A stretch of DNA of 64,000 nt from Desulfobacteraceae bacterium Eth-SRB2 (lineage in GTDB: Bacteria > Desulfobacterota > Desulfobacteria > Desulfobacterales > UBA11574). The stretch is taken from NCBI GenBank assembly GCA_004193595.1, contig RPGQ01000004.1, forward strand, positions 227,461-291,460, written 5' to 3'. Both the position numbers and the translations under genes were made by a program. The notes below the pieces were generated by a model. It was given only the letters and a program-made list of their open reading frames with translations, was not told where the DNA came from and ran no database searches. Shown here in pieces: positions 1 to 60,641 of the stretch (within the stretch, counting starts at the first letter, position 1; the number at the start of each line of letters is the position of its first letter).

Positions 1-109
1 GGTTGAACGATGCGCCGGGGGCAAGGTTCCTGTATTTTTAGTGGGGCATCCCGGCGGGACGATTATCCATCCGGACAGCGTTGTTAAAATGTTGAAAGAG
101 GCCTTTTAA
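1..109 (+). CDS. korA: 2-oxoacid:ferredoxin oxidoreductase alpha subunit, C-terminal end (partial)
   Basis: The frame starting at base 2 is open to a TAA at 107-109 and encodes the last 35 residues of a protein that begins outside the window. The segment VFLVGHPGGTIIHPD resembles the C-terminus of the alpha subunit (pyrimidine-binding and transketolase-C part) of 2-oxoacid:ferredoxin oxidoreductases. The beta subunit starts 3 bp downstream and the gamma subunit overlaps that, so the order alpha-beta-gamma is the usual Kor/Vor layout. The assignment rests more on context than on the short sequence itself. Confidence 0.7.
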   Translation, partial: VERCAGGKVPVFLVGHPGGTIIHPDSVVKMLKEAF

Positions 110-112
110 ACC

Positions 113-985
113 ATGCAAGACATCCCGACACCATCCAAAAAACAACCCTGTCATCCCCTGGATGATCTTATCCGCACGGATCGCATTCCCCATATCTGGT
201 GTCCGGGGTGCGGGATTGGAACGGTGTTCTCGGCGTGTCTGGCTGCTCTGAAAGGAAGCGGTATCAATCTTCGAAAGACGGTGATGGTCTCGGGAATCGG
301 ATGTTCGGGACGTGCCGCCGGTTATGTTAAACTGGATTCCTTTCATACAACCCACGGCAGGGCCATACCCTTTGCCACCGGATTAAAACTTGCCAACCCT
401 GAACTGAATATCGTGGTGTTCAGCGGTGACGGCGATCTCTTCGCCATCGGCGGAAACCATTTTATCCATGCGGCCCGGCGGAATATGGATATGACGGTTA
501 TCTGTGTAAATAACTTAAATTATGGCATGACCGGCGGCCAGGTCGCCGCAACCACACCTCACCTGGCGAAATCGACAACAACACCGATCGGAAATCCTGA
601 AACCCCTTTTAATCTGCCACTAATGGCCTATGCGTGCGGCGCCACGTATGTAGCCCGATGGACCATGCTGCACATCAGAGATCTTACGGATTCCATAACA
701 GAAGCGATTTGTAAAAAAGGATTTTCCTTTATTGAAGCACTTTCACCGTGTCCGGTAAATTACGGTCGACGCAATAAACAAAAACCTTTGGATATGCTAA
801 GGTTATACCAGGAAAAAGCCATCATCAAAAATCATGCAGATCCTTCTACACTGGATATAGACTTTGAAAAGGGCATCATTTTGGGCAAATTTATCGATCT
901 GGATCGACCAACGTTTATTGAACAGTATGACAAGATCTACCGGCCGAGCCGTCTTCAAGAAAACGTTTCGGAATTGAACTCATGA
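113..985 (+). CDS. korB: 2-oxoacid:ferredoxin oxidoreductase beta subunit (thiamine diphosphate subunit)
   Basis: A 290-residue protein of normal length for the family. It oxidatively decarboxylates a 2-oxoacid to an acyl-CoA and passes two electrons to ferredoxin. The thiamine-diphosphate motif is visible as GDGD near residue 105 and NNLNYGMTGGQ near 133. The N-terminal WCPGCG (Cys30, Cys33), the GIGCSGR Cys and the later SPCPVNYG Cys are the four ligands expected for the subunit's [4Fe-4S] cluster. The ATG lies 3 bp after the korA stop, with an AAAGAGG-like ribosome site inside korA. The substrate (2-oxoglutarate, branched-chain oxoacid or another) cannot be told from sequence alone. Confidence 0.93.
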   Translation: MQDIPTPSKKQPCHPLDDLIRTDRIPHIWCPGCGIGTVFSACLAALKGSGINLRKTVMVSGIGCSGRAAGYVKLDSFHTTHGRAIPFATGLKLANPELNIVVFSGDGDLFAIGGNHFIHAARRNMDMTVICVNNLNYGMTGGQVAATTPHLAKSTTTPIGNPETPFNLPLMAYACGATYVARWTMLHIRDLTDSITEAICKKGFSFIEALSPCPVNYGRRNKQKPLDMLRLYQEKAIIKNHADPSTLDIDFEKGIILGKFIDLDRPTFIEQYDKIYRPSRLQENVSELNS

Positions 986-1590
986 CCGACGCTCAAAATC
1001 ATAAACAGGCAAAAAAGGAAATTATAATCACCGGCTTTGGTGGGCAGGGCATTATTCTTGCGGGTATTATCCTGGGAAAAGCGGCCGCTATTGGTGAACA
1101 CATGGAAAGCACACTTGTTCAGTCATACGGGCCCGAGTCTCGTGGGGGGTCGTGTAATGCTCAGGTCGTGATTTCCCATGAAATGATTCATTACCCTTAT
1201 GTGAGTCATCCGGATATTTTGGTCTGCATGTCTCAATCAGGCTATGATAAGCTGATCCAGCAGATCAAGGAAAACGGAACGTTAATCATTGATCAGGATC
1301 TGGTTCGACCTGCCCGTGAATTAAAACGTGACTTTTTTTCTATCCCTGCCACCGGCATGGCCGAAGAGTTGGGGCGGGTAATGATCGCCAATATCATTAT
1401 GATCGGTTTTTTAACCGCCGTCACAGATGTTATTTCCATGGATGCAGCCCAAAAATCCGTCCTGGAATCCGTGCCAAAAGGCACTGAAAAACTGAACACA
1501 ACGGCCTTCAAAAAAGGTCATGACTATGGCCTGGCCACACTCAAGGGACGGCAGAAAAAGGCCGCAGGTCAAGCAGGAGCTATTTCATGA
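982..1590 (+). CDS. korC: 2-oxoacid:ferredoxin oxidoreductase gamma subunit
   Basis: A 202-residue protein with the family signature GFGGQGI at residues 18-24 and SYGPESRGG near residue 50. These form the domain that binds the CoA part and closes the active site in pyruvate/2-oxoacid:ferredoxin oxidoreductases. The start codon overlaps the korB stop (ATGA), so the two are translationally coupled. It in turn overlaps the following 1119-residue flavoprotein gene by ATGA. The enzyme and the Hdr-like proteins are therefore made from one transcript. Confidence 0.93.
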   Translation: MTDAQNHKQAKKEIIITGFGGQGIILAGIILGKAAAIGEHMESTLVQSYGPESRGGSCNAQVVISHEMIHYPYVSHPDILVCMSQSGYDKLIQQIKENGTLIIDQDLVRPARELKRDFFSIPATGMAEELGRVMIANIIMIGFLTAVTDVISMDAAQKSVLESVPKGTEKLNTTAFKKGHDYGLATLKGRQKKAAGQAGAIS

Positions 1591-4500
1591 AACGTCCCAA
1601 AGAACGGCTCCACCGGGTCACCGTTATCGGTGCGACACCGGCAGGTATCGCCGCTACCAACAAGCTTGGAGAACTGGGCATTCCCCTCACCCTTGTGGAT
1701 TCTGATTACGATCTGGATAAAAAACTTTCCCGGGACGAATGGGTTCTAAAATCAGGCATTCCTTTAAACCATGCCCATCGACCCGGGCTTATCAGAATTT
1801 TAAGAAACCCTGCCATTCGATGCATCTTTCCTGCAAAAGTCTCCTCCATTAAGCACAATCGCCAAGGATTCCGTGTTCACCTAAACATCCCCCAAACCTT
1901 TGTAGATCAAAACAAATGTACGCTTTGCGGTCGTTGTGTTGAAATATGCCCGGCTTTGCTTCCCGGGGGAGAGAAAGCCATCCAAATTAACAGTCAGCGA
2001 AGCCTTCCCGGCCGGCCGGTCATAGATAAACGGCGACGGCCGCTCTGCCAGGAAAACTGTCCGCTGGGGGTGAACGCCCAGGGCTATATCGCCCTTGTAA
2101 AAGCAGGCAGGTTTGCCCAAGCGCTTGACCTTATCAGGGAAAATAACGTTTTGCCCGGCATCTGCGGACGCATTTGTACCCACCCTTGTGAGGCCGTCTG
2201 CAGAAGGAGCGAGCTCGATGAATCCGTCGCCATCATGGATATTAAGCGATTTGTGACAGACCATGAGCGCTCCAATCCCAGAGACATACAAGCATTTGAT
2301 GTTCATAAAAAGTCGGAAAAGATCGTCATTATCGGCTCAGGTCCGGCCGGGATTGCCGCCGCTGCGGACCTGGCCCGATTCGGCTATGAGGTAACGGTTT
2401 TCGAAAAAGAGAAAGAAGTCGGCGGGCTGCTCCGTTACGGAATTGGGCGTCATCGCCTGCCCAGGGATATCATCGATAATGATCTTGAATATATTAAGAA
2501 ACTGGGCGTACAATTTATTACCGCCCATTCTGTGGATCTGGCCTGTGATATGGATTTGCTCAAAAAAGACTTTGACGCTGTCATTCTCTCCATTGGGACG
2601 TGGTCTGATTTAAAATTAGGTGTGCCCGGAGAAACGATCGAAGGCGTTGAAGGTTGCCTCTCTTTTTTGGAGCGCTTTTATCGCAACCAAATAAAAGCAC
2701 TGGATGAAAAAGTAGCGGTAATTGGGGACGGCAACGCCGCATTTGACCTGGCCCGGACACTGTTGCGTCTGGGTGCCCATGTGACAATTTTATCCTGGTT
2801 CCCTGAAGAGTTGATCCCTGCCAATGCCGAAGAAATTCGGGCCGCCAAAGAAGAAGGAATTATCATTCGGGATTGCACCCAGACCATTGCGTTTTTAGAT
2901 CAAAGCGGTAAGCTCCATAGGCTGCGTTGCATGACCACCAAACCCGGAGAACCCGATGCTAAGGGTATCCCCTGGCCGGTTATTATCCCGGATCGTCAGC
3001 CCTTTGAACTCGAGTTTGACCGGGCTTTTGTTGCCATCGGTCAAAGGGGAGCTTTGCAAAGTCATAACCCTTCGTTCAGCTTTGATGTTTCAACACGAGG
3101 CTTGATTGAGGTTGATGAATATTTGCGTACGAATTTACCGGGTGTCTATGCTGTAGGAGATTCGGTTTCAGGACCCTCATCCGTTGTTGAAGCCATGGCC
3201 GCAGGCCGGCTGGTTGCCCGTATGGTTCATGGCGATATTTGTAAAGAGGAGGTTTTTTATCCTGGGCCCTTAAGGCCGGAGGACAAAGATTTTCCGGAAA
3301 TTCCGGCGGATATACCTTCGCAAGCACGAACCATCATGCCGGAAAGGCAACCGGCGGTGCGCAAGAATAGTTTCTTGGAAGTCTCCATGGGATTGAGCGA
3401 ACAACAGGTTTTTTTAGAAGCCGCCCGTTGTCTTCAATGTGGAGTTTGCAGCGAATGTCTCCAGTGCGTTGATGCCTGTGGTGCAATTCATGCGATAAAC
3501 CATGCACAATTACCGGAAGAAACCATTGAGCAAACCGGTGTGATCATTATTGCAGACCCGGAAATAGCCCCGACGGTCAAAGGGGATGATGTCATCCGAG
3601 TATACGGGCCCAAAACGGCGAAACCGGATGTTAACGCCATGTTTGTTCGAGGTTTTGCAGCGGCTTCCCGGGCCATGATATTGCTTGGGAAAACCTTCCA
3701 ACGGCCAAAAGGGTATGGCTTGTCATTTTCCACGCCTGATCCGGGGCTTTCCCCGGAAATCCGTCTGGGAATTTTTGTCTGTAAATGTAACAATACCTTT
3801 GGATGGCTTGATGATATGAGTCAATACGTCGCGGCATTACAATTTCAAGAGGATGTGGTCCATGCCCAAGTTGTAAACTCGGCCTGCACTCATGAAGGAT
3901 CCTCTGCTATTATCCGGACGATTCGTGAAAAAGGACTCACCCGGGTGGTACTTGCATCCTGTGTATGCTGCCCGCTCAATTTTATTTGCAGCGCCTGTAC
4001 GGACCAGCGAAGTCGGCTGAAAAACGCCTTATTTACCGGAACAGGGATCAGTCGTTCAATGGTGCAGACGTGTAACTTAAGAGGAGAAGTCCTTCGTCTT
4101 TTAAAACGGAGCCCTTCCCTGGCCTTGAAAAAATATACCGGATTCATTGATCGTTCTATGAATCGGGCAAGAAGATTGAAACCGCTTCCGGATCTTATTA
4201 GAAACTATAATTTCACTACGGCGGTAATTGGGACATCCGAAGTCGCCGTAAGCAGTGCTATGACCCTTGCCCAAGCGGGACTGGAGGTCTTTTGGTTCCC
4301 ACGCACGCAAAAACCGCCGATTCAAATTTCTGATCATCCCAATGTGCATAGTTTCGGAGGCTTTTCCATCAAAGAATTGAGCGGGACTCTGGGTAATTTT
4401 CACATTATTGCGGAATCAGACGATTCCCGACAGATAATGACGGTGGGGGCGGTCATCCTGGATGAAAAGTCAAGAAAGAACATTAAGTATATTCACCAGG

Positions 4501-4946
4501 AAAGTCTGCCGGGCAGAACCGTGTCTTCTTCTATGCAGGACATGGGCGTCCCCGGAATACCATTCTTTTATCCGGGGTCAACCGCCATTTCCGGACTTTT
4601 TTTAGCTGAACCGCCGGGCATCAATGTCTCTAATCGGAAAAAAGGCGCTGCCGCCGCAGCCCAGGCAGCAGCCATTATGCCGCGCGAACCGCGTCATAAC
4701 AAGGGATATACCGTTTTAGTGGATGAAAGCCTGTGCCGAAGTTGTGGACGCTGCATTCGCGTCTGCCCTTATCAGGCGGTGACATTGCACAAAAACGCCA
4801 TGGACGGATGGGCCGCCTGGGTGGACGAGACGCTGTGCAAAGGCTGCGGTAATTGTATTTCCGTATGTCCCACCAATGCCGTGGACAGCCCGTATCGTAA
4901 CCAGGAATTTCTCGAACAGACACTTGAAAAAATATTGCTGACGTAA
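1587..4946 (+). CDS. Giant GltD/NfnB-like and HdrA-like iron-sulfur flavoprotein fusion
   Basis: A 1119-residue cytoplasmic protein. Seen in order: a degenerate Rossmann motif GATPAG (15-20); a 4Fe-4S motif CTLCGRCVEICP (about 110-121); the four-Cys GltD/dihydropyrimidine-dehydrogenase domain; an intact FAD site GSGPAG (about 249); an NAD(P)H site GDGNAAF (about 379); a Cys-rich CLQCGVCSECLQC (about 615). From about 728 there is a copy of the HdrA N-terminal domain (FVCKCN, ASCVCC) with a second degenerate Rossmann motif GTSEVA. Two ferredoxin motifs close the protein (CRSCGRCIRVCP, CKGCGNCISVCP, about 1050-1098). The GltD core predicts NAD(P)H or NAD(P)+ as one electron partner. Overlap with korC and the Hdr genes downstream suggest it connects ferredoxin, pyridine nucleotide and Hdr. 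The exact reaction is inference. Confidence 0.85.
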   Translation: MKRPKERLHRVTVIGATPAGIAATNKLGELGIPLTLVDSDYDLDKKLSRDEWVLKSGIPLNHAHRPGLIRILRNPAIRCIFPAKVSSIKHNRQGFRVHLNIPQTFVDQNKCTLCGRCVEICPALLPGGEKAIQINSQRSLPGRPVIDKRRRPLCQENCPLGVNAQGYIALVKAGRFAQALDLIRENNVLPGICGRICTHPCEAVCRRSELDESVAIMDIKRFVTDHERSNPRDIQAFDVHKKSEKIVIIGSGPAGIAAAADLARFGYEVTVFEKEKEVGGLLRYGIGRHRLPRDIIDNDLEYIKKLGVQFITAHSVDLACDMDLLKKDFDAVILSIGTWSDLKLGVPGETIEGVEGCLSFLERFYRNQIKALDEKVAVIGDGNAAFDLARTLLRLGAHVTILSWFPEELIPANAEEIRAAKEEGIIIRDCTQTIAFLDQSGKLHRLRCMTTKPGEPDAKGIPWPVIIPDRQPFELEFDRAFVAIGQRGALQSHNPSFSFDVSTRGLIEVDEYLRTNLPGVYAVGDSVSGPSSVVEAMAAGRLVARMVHGDICKEEVFYPGPLRPEDKDFPEIPADIPSQARTIMPERQPAVRKNSFLEVSMGLSEQQVFLEAARCLQCGVCSECLQCVDACGAIHAINHAQLPEETIEQTGVIIIADPEIAPTVKGDDVIRVYGPKTAKPDVNAMFVRGFAAASRAMILLGKTFQRPKGYGLSFSTPDPGLSPEIRLGIFVCKCNNTFGWLDDMSQYVAALQFQEDVVHAQVVNSACTHEGSSAIIRTIREKGLTRVVLASCVCCPLNFICSACTDQRSRLKNALFTGTGISRSMVQTCNLRGEVLRLLKRSPSLALKKYTGFIDRSMNRARRLKPLPDLIRNYNFTTAVIGTSEVAVSSAMTLAQAGLEVFWFPRTQKPPIQISDHPNVHSFGGFSIKELSGTLGNFHIIAESDDSRQIMTVGAVILDEKSRKNIKYIHQESLPGRTVSSSMQDMGVPGIPFFYPGSTAISGLFLAEPPGINVSNRKKGAAAAAQAAAIMPREPRHNKGYTVLVDESLCRSCGRCIRVCPYQAVTLHKNAMDGWAAWVDETLCKGCGNCISVCPTNAVDSPYRNQEFLEQTLEKILLT

Positions 4947-4949
4947 AAA

Positions 4950-6533
4950 ATGAACGACTTCAAAATAATCTTATTTTTATGTAACTGGGGGCCCCATACC
5001 GCTTTCCAAACCCTTCAGGACACTGGACGCGAGATTCCCGATGAGGTAAGTATGATTCGGATTCCCTGCACCGGAAGAATCAGTAAATCCCTTCTGTTTA
5101 AAGCGTTTGAAATGGGAGCGGATGGTGTGGTTCTGGCAGGGTGTAAACCCGGAACCTGCCGATATGGCAGCGGTACGGCTACCGCTATAGAAAATACCGA
5201 AGATACGCGGGATATTATCGGACTTTTAGGCCTGGGGAAAGAACGGTTGCGGCATGTCACATTTTTCCCGGATGAGTCGGATCTATTGTTGAAATTCTTG
5301 AATGACTTTTGCAATCAAATCCGGTCGTTGGGCCCGAGTCCCATGTTGCCGATTCCAATAACGGAATCAGAAGCTATCAGCCGGGAGTCTTTGGCCGAGA
5401 TCGTCTCTTATCATGATGCCTTTGCCTGTCAGGACTGTGGGAAATGCTCTTCCGCCTGTCCTCTGGCATTGATCGGCAAACCATTCTCGCCCCGGGAACT
5501 GGTCAACTCCATCATTGCCGGCGATATGGACTCTCCTTCCGTAAACAAAGATATCTGGTCCTGCCTGACCTGTGGCCTCTGTTATGACCGCTGTCCATCG
5601 GCAGTTAATTTTCCCGAGTTTATCCGAGATATTCGCCACGTTATCAGAAAAAAGGGAGGGAATGCTCATGAGGCGCACGGTGGCTTTTTTCAGTCTCTGA
5701 TGCGAGCCATGACATCACCCGGGCTCAAAACACAGCGATGGGATTGGCTGCCCCAAGATGTGGAGGTTGATTCCAAAAGTAAGATCCTTTTTTTTGGGGG
5801 GTGTAGCCCGTACTTTGACATATTTTTCAGAAACCATCTGGGCGTTGAAACCCGTAAGATCTTAAAAGATAGTCTTCGTCTTCTCAATTTCTTCGATATT
5901 AAACCGGCCTTACTCCAGGATGAGCGATGCTGCGGACATGATCTTCTCTGGTCGGGAGATAAAGATAATTTTTTAAAATTAGCAGCAATGAATGTGGAGT
6001 CGATCCATAACCTTGGAATTGAGGAGGTGATTACGGCTTGTCCGGAGTGCTACAGGACACTGGCCCATGATTACCCGAAATATGGGATTACATTAAATTT
6101 CAAGGTCACCCACATCTATGAACTGCTTGAAAACGAAATCAGCAAAGGCGCCATAGATTTTAAAAAAATTGATAAAAAAATAACATTCCAAGATTCGTGT
6201 CGTTTAAACTGGATCGAAGAACCTGCAGACCTTCCCAGAAAATTGATCCGGCGCCTCAAGCCAAGCAGCTTCCGGGAGATGCAGAATAATGGAAAGTCGG
6301 CCATATGTTGCGGGAATTGCGCCTGGACCGGATGTGATGCGTTCAGCAAGGCACTTCAGGTCAAACGCCTGCGACAGGCGCATGACACCGGAAGTGATCT
6401 TCTGGTCACGGCCTGCCCCAAATGTCAGATTCATCTCCGTTGTGCCATGGAAGATCCTTTTCTCGGAGAAGAACTGAACATGGAGATGATAGACTTGACC
6501 GGTATTATTGCAAAAACCATTTGCTGGGAGTAA
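4950..6533 (+). CDS. MvhD-HdrC-HdrB fusion (HdrD-like) iron-sulfur protein
   Basis: A 527-residue protein starting 3 bp after the giant flavoprotein gene. Residues 1-130 are an MvhD/FlpD domain ([2Fe-2S] type, with CNWGP, CTGRI and CKPGTCRY cysteines). An HdrC-like pair of 4Fe-4S motifs follows (CQDCGKCSSACP near 161, CLTCGLCYDRCP near 205). The rest carries two CCG domains with complete cysteine sets (GGCSPYFD / CCGHD / ACPECY and DSCRLN / ICCGN / ACPKC), which in HdrB/HdrD hold noncubane clusters that reduce disulfides. MvhD normally passes electrons to HdrA, so one polypeptide here links an electron entry module to a thiol-disulfide module. The physiological disulfide is unknown. Confidence 0.88.
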   Translation: MNDFKIILFLCNWGPHTAFQTLQDTGREIPDEVSMIRIPCTGRISKSLLFKAFEMGADGVVLAGCKPGTCRYGSGTATAIENTEDTRDIIGLLGLGKERLRHVTFFPDESDLLLKFLNDFCNQIRSLGPSPMLPIPITESEAISRESLAEIVSYHDAFACQDCGKCSSACPLALIGKPFSPRELVNSIIAGDMDSPSVNKDIWSCLTCGLCYDRCPSAVNFPEFIRDIRHVIRKKGGNAHEAHGGFFQSLMRAMTSPGLKTQRWDWLPQDVEVDSKSKILFFGGCSPYFDIFFRNHLGVETRKILKDSLRLLNFFDIKPALLQDERCCGHDLLWSGDKDNFLKLAAMNVESIHNLGIEEVITACPECYRTLAHDYPKYGITLNFKVTHIYELLENEISKGAIDFKKIDKKITFQDSCRLNWIEEPADLPRKLIRRLKPSSFREMQNNGKSAICCGNCAWTGCDAFSKALQVKRLRQAHDTGSDLLVTACPKCQIHLRCAMEDPFLGEELNMEMIDLTGIIAKTICWE

Positions 6534-6540
6534 CCGTTTA

Positions 6541-6681
6541 TAAAGGTTTCAGGTATCAGGAATGATGAACAAAGGCGCTGGCACCTGAGACCTGACACCT
6601 GAAACCTGAAACCAGGCATACGGAAAGGAATAAATATGGGATATTTTTTAAAACCATATTATGTACAATTTTAATCATTAC
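6541..6681. repeat. Dispersed repeat H, copy 1 (hairpin plus conserved 12-codon micro-ORF)
   Basis: The left half is an inverted repeat: GGTTTCAGGTATCAGG near 6545 and CCTGACACCTGAAACC near 6589. The right half reads GGAAAGGAATAAATATG followed by twelve codons (MGYFLKPYYVQF, stop). The same arrangement recurs at 26881-27013. This copy lies in the 232-bp gap before the selenocysteine HdrA gene. Confidence 0.75.
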
Positions 6682-6765
6682 GGATATTAACTGATTTCAA
6701 GGGTTGTTATTTTCCCAACACAATATAGAAAAATTTAAAATTGCCCCGATGGTCTTATTTAAGGA

Positions 6766-9207
6766 ATGAACATGGAACCTGTTACTTCAATAAATACAAA
6801 ACCGCAGATGCGTATCGGCGTCTATGTCTGTCATTGCGGGTCAAATATCGCTCAGACGGTGAACTGTCCAAAAGTTTCCGAAACAGCTTCCCGGCTTGAG
6901 GATGTTTTTATTTCAAAAGATATCGCTTACGCCTGTTCCGAGCCGGGTCAACAGGAAATCCGGCAGGATATTCAGGAACACGGGCTGGAACGCATTGTCG
7001 TGGCCTCTTGTTCACCGAGGCTTCATGAACCCACTTTTCGACAGATGATGCAATCCGCGGGTCTTAATCCGTATCTTTTGGAAATGGCCAATCTCCGTGA
7101 GCAATGCAGCTGGGTCCATTTGAATGAACCTGATGCAGCAACACAAAAGGCTGAAGACCTTGTAAAAATGGCCGTGTCCCGGGCACGATTGCTCCAGCCG
7201 CTTAAAGAAGAAAAGCTGCCGCTCACCAAACGAACCTTGGTCATCGGCGGGGGTATTGCCGGCATTCAGACCTCCCTCGATCTTGCAGACAACGGTTATG
7301 ACGTTGTTCTGGTGGAAAAAAATGCTTCCATTGGCGGAACCATGGCCCAGCTTGACAAGACCTTTCCGACCATGGACTGTTCCATTTGAATCCTGGGTCC
7401 TAAAATGACGGATGTCGGTCGACATCCCCGGATAAAGCTCTACACCCTGAGCGAAATAGTAGATGTTAAAGGCTATGTGGGCAACTTTGATATAAAGATA
7501 TTAAAAAAGGCGCGTTATGTGTCAGAGGAAGAGTGCACGGCGTGTGGTGACTGTGCTGTGGCTTGCCCGGTAGTTCGTCCCGACGAGTTCAACCTGGGAT
7601 TATCATCACGCAAGGCCATTTTCACCCCGTTTCCCCAGGCTGTCCCCTCGGCCTATGTCCTTAATGTCAATGAATGCTTGGGACACAACCCGGTGGTTTG
7701 CGCAAAATGTCTCGAAGCCTGTGAAAAGGGCTGCATCAATTTTCACATGTCCGATGACGAAATCAAGGAACGTGTGGGATCTATCATCGTGGCGACCGGA
7801 CTGGAGCCTTACGATCCCACTGAGCTTGACGAATACGGATATACAAGGTTCGAAAATGTCCTTACCAGTCTTGAATTTGAACGCCTCGTCAATGCCGGGG
7901 GCCCTACCAAAGGAAAACTGATTCGCCCCACAGACAGAAGACTTCCTAAATCCGTGGGCTTTATCCAATGTGTGGGCTCACGGTCTGCCAGGAAAGGCAG
8001 CAAGTATTGCTCCAATACCTGCTGTATGAACACCATTAAAAGCACACTGGTACTCAAAGAACATTATCCTGATATTGACATAAAGGTTTTTTATATCGAC
8101 ATTCGTGCCTTTGGCAAAGGATTCGAAGATCTCTTTATGCGCAGCCGTCGTCTGGGAGTGCATTACTTGAGAGGGTTGCCGGGCAACGTTGAAGAGCTGC
8201 CGGATCACAGCATGCGGGTTGCGGTCGAAAATACGGTAACCGGCAGGCTGGAATTTTTCGATCTTGAAATGCTCGTCTTAGCTATCGGAATGAAGCCGGC
8301 CAAAAGTACCCGGCGGCTCCAAGAAATGCTGGGGCTTCAGCTAAGCCCGGACGGTTTTTTCCTGGAAGCGCATCCCAAACTCCAACCGGTTGACGCGGCC
8401 TCTCGAGGAATTTTTTATGCGGGATGCGCCGAGAGCCCCAAGGATATCAAAGAAAGCGTTACACAGGCTTCAGCAGCCGCAGTCCGCGCCATTCGCCTGA
8501 TGCATAAAGGAGAAATCTACACAGAACCGATTACTTCCGAAATAGACCCGGAAAAGTGCAACGCTTGCGGCAAGTGTGTTGAAATTTGTCCCTATAATGC
8601 AATTACAAAAGGTATCAGAAAAAAGACGCCTTGTGTCGTGAATACCGCAGCATGCGCCGGCTGCGGCACTTGCGCTGCGGAATGCCCTTATGATGCCATT
8701 GTTATGAACCATTTTACAGACGACCAGATTAACAACCAAATCGATTCCATGTTCGAAGAAAGTTCGCAAGAAAAAATTCTGGTATTTGCCTGCAACTGGT
8801 GCTCATATGCCGGCGCGGATTACGCGGGGGTCTCACGTCTTCAATATCCCTCAAATGTTCGGATTATCCGGACCATGTGCTCAGGCCGAGTTGACGAAAA
8901 ATTTATCTTTAACGGTTTTCTTAACGGTGCACCGGTTGTCCTGGTCAGCGGATGCCATATGGGTGACTGCCATTATATTGATGCCAACCGCTGGACCGAG
9001 AAAAGAGTTAAAAAGATTCGAAAGAAAATGGAGAAACTGGAAATCCGGCCCGAACGGCTCCAGCTCGAATGGATCAGTGCGGCAGAAGGGAGTCGATTCG
9101 CCGAGATAATGGGAAGGATGGAAAAACTTCGTCAGAGTGTTTCCATACAGGAAATTTCAGAAACCATTGAGATCCTAAAGAATCAGGGAAAAATGACCCA
9201 AAACTGA
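6766..9207 (+). CDS. hdrA: HdrA-MvhD fusion, selenocysteine-containing (TGA at 7387-7389 read as Sec)
   Basis: Read through the in-frame TGA at 7387-7389, this is one 813-residue protein; stopping there would give 207 residues. HdrA is the FAD subunit of heterodisulfide reductase complexes and the site of flavin-based electron bifurcation. Visible parts: N-terminal VCHCGSN domain (1-140), FAD site GGGIAGIQTS (about 160), then DCSI-U-ILGPKM, where Sec208 replaces the second Cys of the family motif CSxCILxPKM. Ferredoxin-like motifs follow (CTACGDCAVACP about 257; CNACGKCVEICP and CAGCGTCAAECP about 599 and 630). Residues 670-780 are an MvhD domain (FACNWCSYAG, CSGR, CHMGDCHY). SD AAGGA precedes the ATG. 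The internal ATG at 7405 has no ribosome site. Sec-HdrA is known in methanogens and some sulfate reducers. Confidence 0.9.
7387..7427 (+). promoter_or_regulatory. Selenocysteine TGA codon and bacterial SECIS-like hairpin
   Basis: TGA occupies 7387-7389. A perfect 7-bp stem, GGATGTC (7410-7416) with GACATCC (7421-7427), closes a GGTC tetraloop (7417-7420). The loop begins 28 nt after the TGA. A stem of this kind with GGU(C) in the apical loop shortly downstream of UGA is the bacterial SECIS pattern bound by SelB, as in E. coli fdhF. The hairpin lies inside coding sequence, as expected in bacteria. Confidence 0.85.
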
Positions 9208-32476: not shown

Positions 32477-32510
32477 TTGGAATAATGGAATGATGGAGTA
32501 ATGGAATAAA
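32477..32510. repeat. Short tandem repeat of TGGAATAA/TGGAATGA units
   Basis: Four 8-9 bp units (TGGAATAATGGAATGATGG and onward) between the rhomboid and nadC genes. Related runs lie at 36085-36105 (reverse) and 60604-60641. Confidence 0.7.
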
Positions 32511-36271: not shown

Positions 36272-37069
36272 TCATTTTTCATTTTCCGCCGCTTCTTCGA
36301 GCAGGATACTTTTTAATCTTTCTAACTCCCGCGAGACCGTTTTTTCAATGACCTCAACAAGAATACCATCGATCTTTTCGTAAAACATCTTTTTTATAAC
36401 ACGCTCCAAAGCTGCTTCCATATGTGCATCCGACACCTTTTCAGAATCAATTTCAGTATCAGGCAAATCCTCCGAAACATCTTCTTTAGCGTCGAGCTCC
36501 ATTCCCAGGGAATCGACAAAATCATCACTCAGGTCCTGATCAAAGGCGACTTCCTTGCCAAATTCATCATCTAATTCACTTGGTTCTTCTAAAAGATCTG
36601 GTTCTATCTCAATAAGATCCTCTGCTTCCTGAGATGAATCCACGATTATAGGGATAGGTTCACCGATTTCTTCTATTTCCTTGGAGGTATCGCCCACTGT
36701 ATCGGTTTCTGTTATGATATCTTCTGCTGATTCTGCTTCTTCAGTGACCACGGCTTCCTTTATATTTTCTACGCCAGGCTCATCGACGGCCTCCAAAAGG
36801 TCGATAATTTCCCCATCGTCTTGAGATGCATCAAGTGTCTCTTCTTGGAGTTCTATGATCTCTGGGTCTGGTATTGAATCTGTCTCTTGGGAGACCACGG
36901 CTTCCTTTTCACCTTCTAAACCAGGTTCGTCGGCATCCTCTAGAAGGTCGATAATTTCCTCATCGTCTTGAGATGCAACGAATGTCTCTTCTTCAAGTTC
37001 TATAATCTCTTGATCTTGTATTGATTCTGCCCCTTCAATTTTCTTGTCCGGATCATTATTGTCCGACAT
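36272..37069 (-). CDS. Acidic low-complexity protein with short helical C-terminus (PopZ-like architecture)
   Basis: 265 residues. The first 200 are highly acidic (Asp/Glu-rich, isoleucine-spaced) with two imperfect copies of about 55 residues (PEIIELQEETLDASQDD and DQEIIELEEETFVASQDD). The last 45 residues are an amphipathic helical segment (ERVIKKMFYEKIDGILVE, then EKTVSRELERLK). This layout, a disordered acidic body plus a conserved C-terminal helical hairpin, resembles the polar organising protein PopZ (DUF2497), but sequence support is weak. A good AGGGGG ribosome site precedes the ATG. It lies 190 bp upstream of valS on the same strand. Confidence 0.65.
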   Translation of the reverse strand: MSDNNDPDKKIEGAESIQDQEIIELEEETFVASQDDEEIIDLLEDADEPGLEGEKEAVVSQETDSIPDPEIIELQEETLDASQDDGEIIDLLEAVDEPGVENIKEAVVTEEAESAEDIITETDTVGDTSKEIEEIGEPIPIIVDSSQEAEDLIEIEPDLLEEPSELDDEFGKEVAFDQDLSDDFVDSLGMELDAKEDVSEDLPDTEIDSEKVSDAHMEAALERVIKKMFYEKIDGILVEVIEKTVSRELERLKSILLEEAAENEK

Positions 37070-39917: not shown

Positions 39918-40010
39918 AAAAAAGCCGAAGCACCTTACTTCCCAAGGTAACTTGGCTATCTTAATACAGATCCTTGGCTTTCCGTCCCGGCCCCATGACC
40001 GTTTTGGCTT
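39918..40010 (-). promoter_or_regulatory. Probable c-di-GMP-I (GEMM-I) riboswitch with terminator platform
   Basis: On the minus strand the core reads GGGACGGAAAGCCAAGG, then an ATCT...AGAT hairpin, then AGCCAAGTTACCTTGG. This matches the GEMM-I layout GGGACGCAAAGCC...GCCGGGTTGCC, with CCAAGG/CCTTGG as P2 and CGGTC-ATGG-GGCCG as P1b. Differences from consensus are ACGG for ACGC and a non-GNRA loop. A GAAG/CTTC hairpin with GGCTTTTTT follows (the T-run is the A-run at 39918-39923), then the PEP-CTERM ORF 85 bp on. Confidence 0.75.
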
Positions 40011-40218
40011 TTTCTTGGTATGTTCTGATTTAATTTGTTCAGATTTGTTTATGCAAAAATCATGCATAACCAGAATTTTTTTTGCCCCTTTAAATTTCAA
40101 TTAGTTATCGTAAATGGAAAGGCGATGAACATTATATTGTGAAATGAATACCATAGATTTTATTGAATTTTTTACATATTGGGTAGTTCAGGTAACACTT
40201 AAACTCTGCATCCATAAT

Positions 40219-60603: not shown

Positions 60604-60641
60604 ATTGGAATGATGGAATGATGGAATAATGGAATAATGGG
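60604..60641. repeat. Short tandem repeat of TGGAATGA/TGGAATAA units
   Basis: Five units of 8-9 bp, the same sequence type as at 32477-32510. Upstream of the radical SAM gene. Confidence 0.7.

Follow-up and report, generated by a model that had tools for sequence, protein, structure and literature searches.

We report that a gene of the Desulfobacteraceae bacterium Eth-SRB2 encodes a fusion of HdrA and FlpD (MvhD) in which a single in-frame TGA, at codon 208, is very likely decoded as selenocysteine (Sec). This prediction relies on sequence comparison: the TGA is kept among homologues, the hairpin that follows it is nearly invariant, covaries and has decayed in the Cys forms, and the genome possesses the Sec machinery. 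Taken as a whole, the observations are best explained, with a probability that we estimate at about two in three, by an HdrA-FlpD fusion in which Sec208 would be decoded through SelB and the hairpin and would serve as a trans ligand to the N-terminal [4Fe-4S] cluster of the partner HdrA. All positions refer to the window, i.e., the whole stretch of 64,000 nucleotides that was analyzed.

The hdrA-flpD gene and its in-frame TGA

The gene comprises the following features:

6766..9207, + strand: hdrA-flpD (HdrA2-type fusion), 813 aa; translation with TGA read as U and match to NF040770
7378..7380, + strand: Cys205, first residue of the CxxU motif; conserved in 125/125 TGA rows
7387..7389, + strand: in-frame TGA, codon 208, predicted Sec; frame reading and TGA in 125/154 distinct homologues sampled
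8776..9123, + strand: FlpD/MvhD domain, residues 671-786; PF02662 at 157.9 bits

The frame running from ATG 6766 to 9207 contains one internal TGA, followed by 605 sense codons and by the terminal TGA at 9205-9207. The internal TGA stands where the CxxC motif of HdrA has its second Cys (D-C-S-I-U-I-L-G-P-K-M around codon 208), exactly as the preliminary description of this DNA had claimed. A scan of the whole window for TGA codons between open frames returned many junctions, of which only the one at 7387 appeared plausible by eye. With C written for U, the protein scored 1198.6 bits against the HdrA2 model NF040770 (curated cut-off: 1100) and its FlpD/MvhD domain lies C-terminally in the same chain as HdrA, as expected of an HdrA2. 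The HdrA of the solved Mvh-Hdr complex (5odc_A) aligned across residues 14-666 with 787.5 bits and the MvhD of this complex (5odc_D) matched residues 668-783. The HdrA-MvhD identity proposed from the letters alone is thus borne out by NF040770 and PF02662. In the alignment to 5odc_A, K425 and E372 correspond to K409 and E356 of the HdrA of M. thermolithotrophicus, which are given as bifurcation residues of HdrA in the available text of PMC12054007, and both are conserved in every row with data. Finally, the sequence AAGGA at 6761-6765 directly abuts ATG 6766, and its distance to ATG 6772 is 6 nt; this spacing suggests, as a minor correction, that translation may start at ATG 6772 instead. A 14-bp repeat, CTGACACCTGAAAC, is present in 2.6 copies at 6578-6613, between the FlpD-HdrCB gene and hdrA.

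We then considered the conservation of the TGA. Codon 208 was read in 27 matches from near genomes, in 70 of the 75 matches from the phylum (30 loci and 40 fetched regions, some of them shared with the near genomes; five matches at 43-49% identity were left out) and in the best 80 named loci. The 174 loci yielded 173 with an alignment across residue 208 (L131 had none) and 154 distinct aligned proteins; because distinctness was judged on the aligned protein, partial copies of one gene may count twice, and the near and phylum genome sets overlap the collection of named genomes. Among these 154 homologues, the codon was TGA in 125, Cys in 27 and Ser in 2, a proportion that does not represent a natural frequency since the sample was drawn by similarity to this protein. 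Matches at E ≤ 1e-150 were found in 22 of the 60 near genomes, some of them being Cys forms of only 45-46% identity, and matches at E ≤ 1e-220 in 65 of the 395 genomes of the phylum (own genome included in both counts).

All of the 80 best-scoring named loci present TGA at codon 208. The carriers include Desulfatibacillum alkenivorans, Desulfogranum marinum, Desulfogranum mediterraneum, Desulfobulbus elongatus, Desulfobulbus rhabdoformis, Desulfoprunum benzoelyticum, Desulfoferrobacter suflitae and Desulfocicer vacuolatum, and the nearest relative among these 80 loci is a Desulfobacterales bacterium (95% identity). We rejected the idea that Sec is universal in this close group, as the 80 loci are the best-scoring ones only. 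Indeed, Cys forms occur inside the Sec radiation: among the best 120 of 5404 database matches, 14 Cys proteins present 69-75% identity and nine present 62-69%. A tree of 104 rows, computed with residue 208 masked and including 30 of the 53 full-length database proteins listed, implies at least six changes between Sec and Cys (the starred branches force six). In a smaller tree of 77 rows, from which rows shorter than 600 residues were left out and in which TGA rows at 72% identity or more were thinned, the TGA rows grouped together with one Cys row inside. Both trees were built with a quick method without bootstrap. One genome carries both forms, with the Sec copy (L240) in a kor operon and the Cys copy (L239) elsewhere. 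The repeated replacement by Cys suggests that the fold, and presumably the reaction too, can do without Sec.

The SECIS hairpin and the selenocysteine machinery

The second element of the prediction is a hairpin located downstream of the TGA:

arms 7410-7416 and 7421-7427, loop GGTC 7417-7420, + strand: SECIS hairpin, 7 bp; pair conservation, covariation and synonymous scan

This is the 7-bp stem with a GGTC loop that had been noticed earlier from the sequence. It begins 20 nt past the TGA, with a TGA-to-loop distance of 27 nt. Bacterial SECIS elements, which differ from those of archaea, follow a distance rule between the UGA and the apical loop. The loop reads GGTC in 124 of the 125 TGA rows and begins with G, as in bacterial SECIS elements. 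Among these rows, all seven pairs of the stem can form in 113 and six in the other 12; the Cys rows (n = 27, of which 13 at 55% identity or more) retain two to five of the seven pairs each. One pair of the stem covaries, being U-A in 64 TGA rows, U-G in 13, C-G in 48 and C-A in none. One partner of this pair lies in a Val/Ala codon and the other is the third base of an Arg codon, which makes the Arg change synonymous: the codon pairs are GTC+CGA (64 rows), GTC+CGG (13 rows) and GCC+CGG (48 rows), and the mismatched GCC+CGA is never found. The Fisher value for this pair is very small, but it is not a probability, and the counts are not independent events, because the rows are related.

Codon usage points to the same segment. 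Across the 405 conserved columns of the TGA rows, five use one codon in at least 95% of rows and three of these five lie within the hairpin (D216, G218 and H220). When limiting the scan to the 230 conserved columns with four- or six-fold degeneracy, G218 is the only one to reach 95%: Gly218 is encoded by GGT in 124/125 TGA rows versus four different codons in the 13 Cys rows at 55% identity or more. Folding 7387-7432 to minimum free energy reproduces the hairpin 7410-7427 exactly, but the energy of this fold is ordinary (z = -0.83; 37 of 200 shuffled sequences fold as well). We therefore rejected fold energy as a proof of the hairpin, whose case rests on the comparative evidence. At gathering thresholds, Rfam returned no SECIS match within the window.

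We also considered whether the amino acids GRHP are kept for the RNA alone. This was rejected in part: they are kept in 13/13 Cys rows at 55% identity or more and in 9/9 Cys proteins at 62-69% identity. Among the best 120 of 5404 database matches, the Cys proteins of at least 69% identity have Gly218 or Arg219 changed in 14 of 14 cases. As a separate observation, an HdrL-type paralogue of the genome (L082; G000:C60:290973, + strand) has TGC at the Sec position and retains the codons GTC-GGC-CGG of the hairpin region of the Sec paralogues, possibly the remnant of a SECIS after a change from Sec to Cys.

The preliminary description had proposed a selenoprotein with a SECIS hairpin, and this proposal, in which Sec remains a prediction, is supported by the conservation of the TGA, by the covarying hairpin and by the sel genes. 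The genome, in which these genes were searched, carries selA (606.7 bits), selB (383.6 bits), selD (379.7 bits) and a tRNA-Sec (75.4 bits), all above cut-off; the lack of selC or selB, which the preliminary description had named as refuting, is thus not what the genome shows. A second tRNA-Sec (55 bits, above cut-off), which may be a contamination, is located at the end of a contig; both have the anticodon TCA (L039 and L040, on G000:C62 and C35). The selD match (L048; G000:C19:63972-64898) itself holds one in-frame TGA, and Sec-containing SelD proteins are already known. Using the motif as a pattern in ten fetched regions of the genome, we identified four additional sites of HdrA type that carry TGA at the equivalent codon and three that carry TGC. 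Two separate FlpD genes (L079 and L080; G000:C52:100687 and C52:130281) present TGA at the first Cys of CHPGECHY and, judging from this motif, are likely further selenoproteins. Several additional FlpD matches contain one TGA.

Possible role of residue 208

Residue 208 aligns without gaps with residue 197 of 5odc_A, a Cys. In the available text of PMC9012536, Cys197 acts as a trans ligand: one HdrA supplies it to the N-terminal [4Fe-4S] cluster on the other. The organism named for the numbered structure in that text is M. wolfeii, and its Cys197 would be residue 197 of 5odc_A, based on the matching motif. The naming of the clusters also differs between the accounts: the legend seen of PMC12350162 places the shuttle cluster HA3 at the C terminus of HdrA, and the excerpt of PMC9012536 places the cluster ligated by Cys197 at the N terminus. 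The preliminary description had suggested that Sec may tune the cluster next to the bifurcating flavin; in light of PMC9012536, as far as its text was available, this suggestion calls for revision, the residue equivalent to Cys197 being described as a ligand to the N-terminal [4Fe-4S] cluster of the partner. SelB bound to the hairpin 7410-7427 would decode the TGA at 7387-7389 as Sec, and, by analogy with the methanogen Cys197, Sec208 would be lent by one HdrA to the N-terminal cluster of its partner. If both the alignment and the description of the trans ligand hold, Sec208 would bridge the core and the arm of the complex. In every group, the N-terminal Cys 22, 24, 57 and 82 are present without exception in the rows that cover them.

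Alternatively, Sec208 could belong to a selenol/thiol redox pair formed by the CxxU motif next to the flavin, alternating between a selenylsulfide and the reduced state as in thioredoxin-reductase-like enzymes, and would then ligate no cluster. Such a pair would fit the conservation of Cys205 in all 125 TGA rows and in 13/13 Cys rows at 55% identity or more (11/14 below 55%), as well as the joint loss of residues 205 and 208 in the two Ser rows, and the domain is called thioredoxin-reductase-like in the available text of PMC12054007. However, three homologues (L132, L146 and L147) retain Cys208 with Ser at position 205, which favors a ligand over a disulfide pair, and the description of Cys197 as a trans ligand in the excerpt of PMC9012536 also speaks against it. 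We consider the redox pair unlikely, although it deserves to be weighed.

The trans ligand reading can be carried one step further, to a model that we regard as doubtful. The Sec208 selenolate would be the trans ligand at the junction between the mobile arm and the flavin core, and the Fe-Se bond would form and break as the arm swings, with the N-terminal Cys 22, 24, 57 and 82 able to take over. Bifurcation would then be gated by selenium acting as a quick-release latch, the group's HdrA complexes would constitute matched Se/S pairs of this latch, and the GltD/HdrA-like subunit described below may borrow the same Sec.

The other alternatives concern the TGA itself. It could be a true stop, with two polypeptides, the second initiated at ATG 7405, reassembling as a split HdrA. 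Standard ORF calling indeed divides the gene into pieces of 207 aa (6766-7389) and 600 aa (7405-9207), as had been foreseen, and the 600-residue piece is the one annotated in databases: among the best 120 of 5404 database matches, 67 begin at about residue 214, and 59 of these start with MTDVGRHP. Met214 (ATG 7405) is present in 125/125 TGA rows, but it is equally fixed in the read-through Cys homologues, which indicates that it is part of the protein motif. Moreover, the break would fall within the FAD domain, and the GGTC hairpin, its covariation and its loss in the Cys rows would all be needless. A split HdrA is therefore very improbable. Given where they start, the 67 entries miss both the N-terminal cluster domain and the beginning of the FAD domain, and they represent a systematic annotation error. 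A reading of UGA as Cys or Trp through an altered code or a suppressor would agree with the Cys found at residue 208 in homologues; we rejected it as highly improbable because the hdrA-flpD gene itself terminates in TGA, the genome carries selA, selB, selD and tRNA-Sec, and the hairpin is tied to the TGA. Finally, this gene comes from a single assembly (83 contigs, 92% complete), but a sequencing error or pseudogene at 7387-7389, which the preliminary description had raised in case homologues carried TGC or TGT, is virtually ruled out: Cys codons do occur in 27 of the 154 homologues, yet TGA recurs in 125 distinct rows from independent assemblies of cultured species and metagenomes, and the downstream frame is intact.

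Gene neighborhood and known selenocysteine-containing HdrA

Upstream of hdrA-flpD, the window contains the following genes:

1..109, + strand: korA 3' end; by eye and homology to relatives, the gene starting upstream of the window (contig C71)
113..985, + strand: korB-like 2-oxoacid:acceptor oxidoreductase beta subunit; NCBIfam matches below cut-offs, conserved neighbor
982..1590, + strand: korC-like gamma subunit; PRK08537 at 220.5 bits (cut-off 235), conserved neighbor
1587..4946, + strand: GltD-like protein with an HdrA-like C-terminal half, 1119 aa; profile matches and alignment, conserved neighbor
4950..6533, + strand: FlpD-HdrC-HdrB-like fusion, 527 aa; matches below cut-offs, conserved neighbor

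A frame for a KorD-like ferredoxin precedes korA outside the window (by eye and homology to relatives), so that the order, in a single direction, is KorD-like, korA, korB, korC, GltD/HdrA-like, FlpD-HdrC-HdrB and hdrA-flpD. The GltD/HdrA-like protein aligns to the N-terminal cluster domain of HdrA and presents a gap at the CxxC/U loop. Among the best 80 named loci, korB, korC, the GltD/HdrA-like gene and the FlpD-HdrCB gene were all present in 49/49 loci with at least 7 kb upstream, and their order and strand were identical in all 52 loci that hold the four genes (korA was outside this count). The FlpD-HdrCB gene was found in 77 of the 80 loci, including all 72 whose upstream sequence reaches 1.7 kb; among the three others, the sequences of L154 and L210 start at the gene itself and that of L231 extends 1.4 kb upstream. 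The Sec form thus belongs to a conserved korB-korC, GltD/HdrA-like, FlpD-HdrCB, HdrA-FlpD order. Six regions of the Cys clade (L233-L238) have korA-korB-korC directly before HdrA, the two middle genes being absent, and a divergent Sec region (L242) has the kor set with a GltD/HdrA-like gene at 32% identity. No kor genes were found in the regions of L239 (the Cys copy mentioned above), L241 and L243 (43-49% identity) or in the short region of L244. These results suggest that the link with a 2-oxoacid oxidoreductase goes with both the Sec and the Cys forms, but not with every member. The HdrA-FlpD fusion would likely be the electron-bifurcation subunit of a flavin-based bifurcating or confurcating module. 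This module would exchange electrons among three partners: the 2-oxoacid oxidoreductase and its ferredoxin, an NAD(P)H site of the GltD type, and a disulfide site of the HdrCB type.

Sec-containing HdrA proteins are an established family in Deltaproteobacteria. The available text of PMC1794560 lists 16 of them, and that of PMC2702500 gives hdrA1, hdrA2, hdrL1 and hdrL3 as Sec-HdrA genes of Desulfobacterium autotrophicum HRM2; in both, as predicted here, Sec in HdrA is encoded by UGA. A 2026 review (PMC13188914, seen in part) includes HdrA with the motif CxxU under NF040770, the same model that the present protein passes. The novelty that the preliminary description had implied is therefore limited, descriptions of Sec-HdrA going back to 2006 or earlier in the sources as available: the family was known, and our analysis adds a well-supported SECIS, the gene context, the tree with its Sec/Cys changes and a corrected view of what Sec would touch. 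Among the matches listed, titles and abstract openings mentioned no kor-linked Sec-HdrA and no Sec at Cys197, the primary 5odc and 7bkb structure papers and the 2021 HdrA review (Appel) being outside this scope.

Several known systems can be compared to the present one. The operons in the available text of PMC1794560 read glpC-hdrA-frhD-frhG-frhA with a separate frhD, whereas FlpD is fused here and the neighbors are kor-like and GltD/HdrA-like genes; no separate frhD, frhG or frhA was found among the scanned neighbors (korB, korC, GltD/HdrA-like, FlpD-HdrCB and the downstream KamA). Desulfococcus multivorans dmul_C02770/80 is annotated in the available text of PMC5109826 as an HdrA with UGA and SECIS, as predicted here. 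By its locus number it should be hdrA1, and the locus number and a gene order fitting the present one suggest that it is probably the orthologue. That text, as far as available, gives no hairpin conservation, ligand assignment or kor linkage. The HdrAU of Methanococcus maripaludis is also a Sec form, with a Cys isoform made when selenium is lacking, but it is archaeal, has a separate VhuD and partners with hydrogenase or formate dehydrogenase (PMC11097638, in part). The HdrA of 5odc_A has Cys instead of Sec, is a separate chain from MvhD and has a hydrogenase as partner. The HdrA2B2C2 of Methanosarcina acetivorans is of the HdrA2 type, like the present protein, but uses F420H2 as donor, with Sec unmentioned in the available text of PMC5861303, whereas the present cluster has kor-like genes. 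HdrA-MvhD fusions are classified as type Ia in the text seen of PMC12054007. Sec-HdrA has appeared in lists for years; the accounts cited, as far as their text was available, state no reason for the selenium. The match of Sec208 to Cys197, together with the naturally occurring Sec and Cys versions, provides matched pairs in which to measure how a selenolate affects an Fe-S cluster and electron bifurcation.

Downstream of hdrA-flpD, KamA was found only in the two closest of the 80 named loci, although downstream DNA is absent from some loci. Elsewhere in the window, a 147-bp tandem repeat (1.9 copies) at 36746-37029 lies inside a minus-strand open frame of 276 codons ending at about 36274, and the 8-bp unit TGGAATAA is present in about four copies each at 32478-32509 and 60606-60640. 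A c-di-GMP-I riboswitch aptamer was detected on the minus strand at 39943-40018 (43.5 bits).
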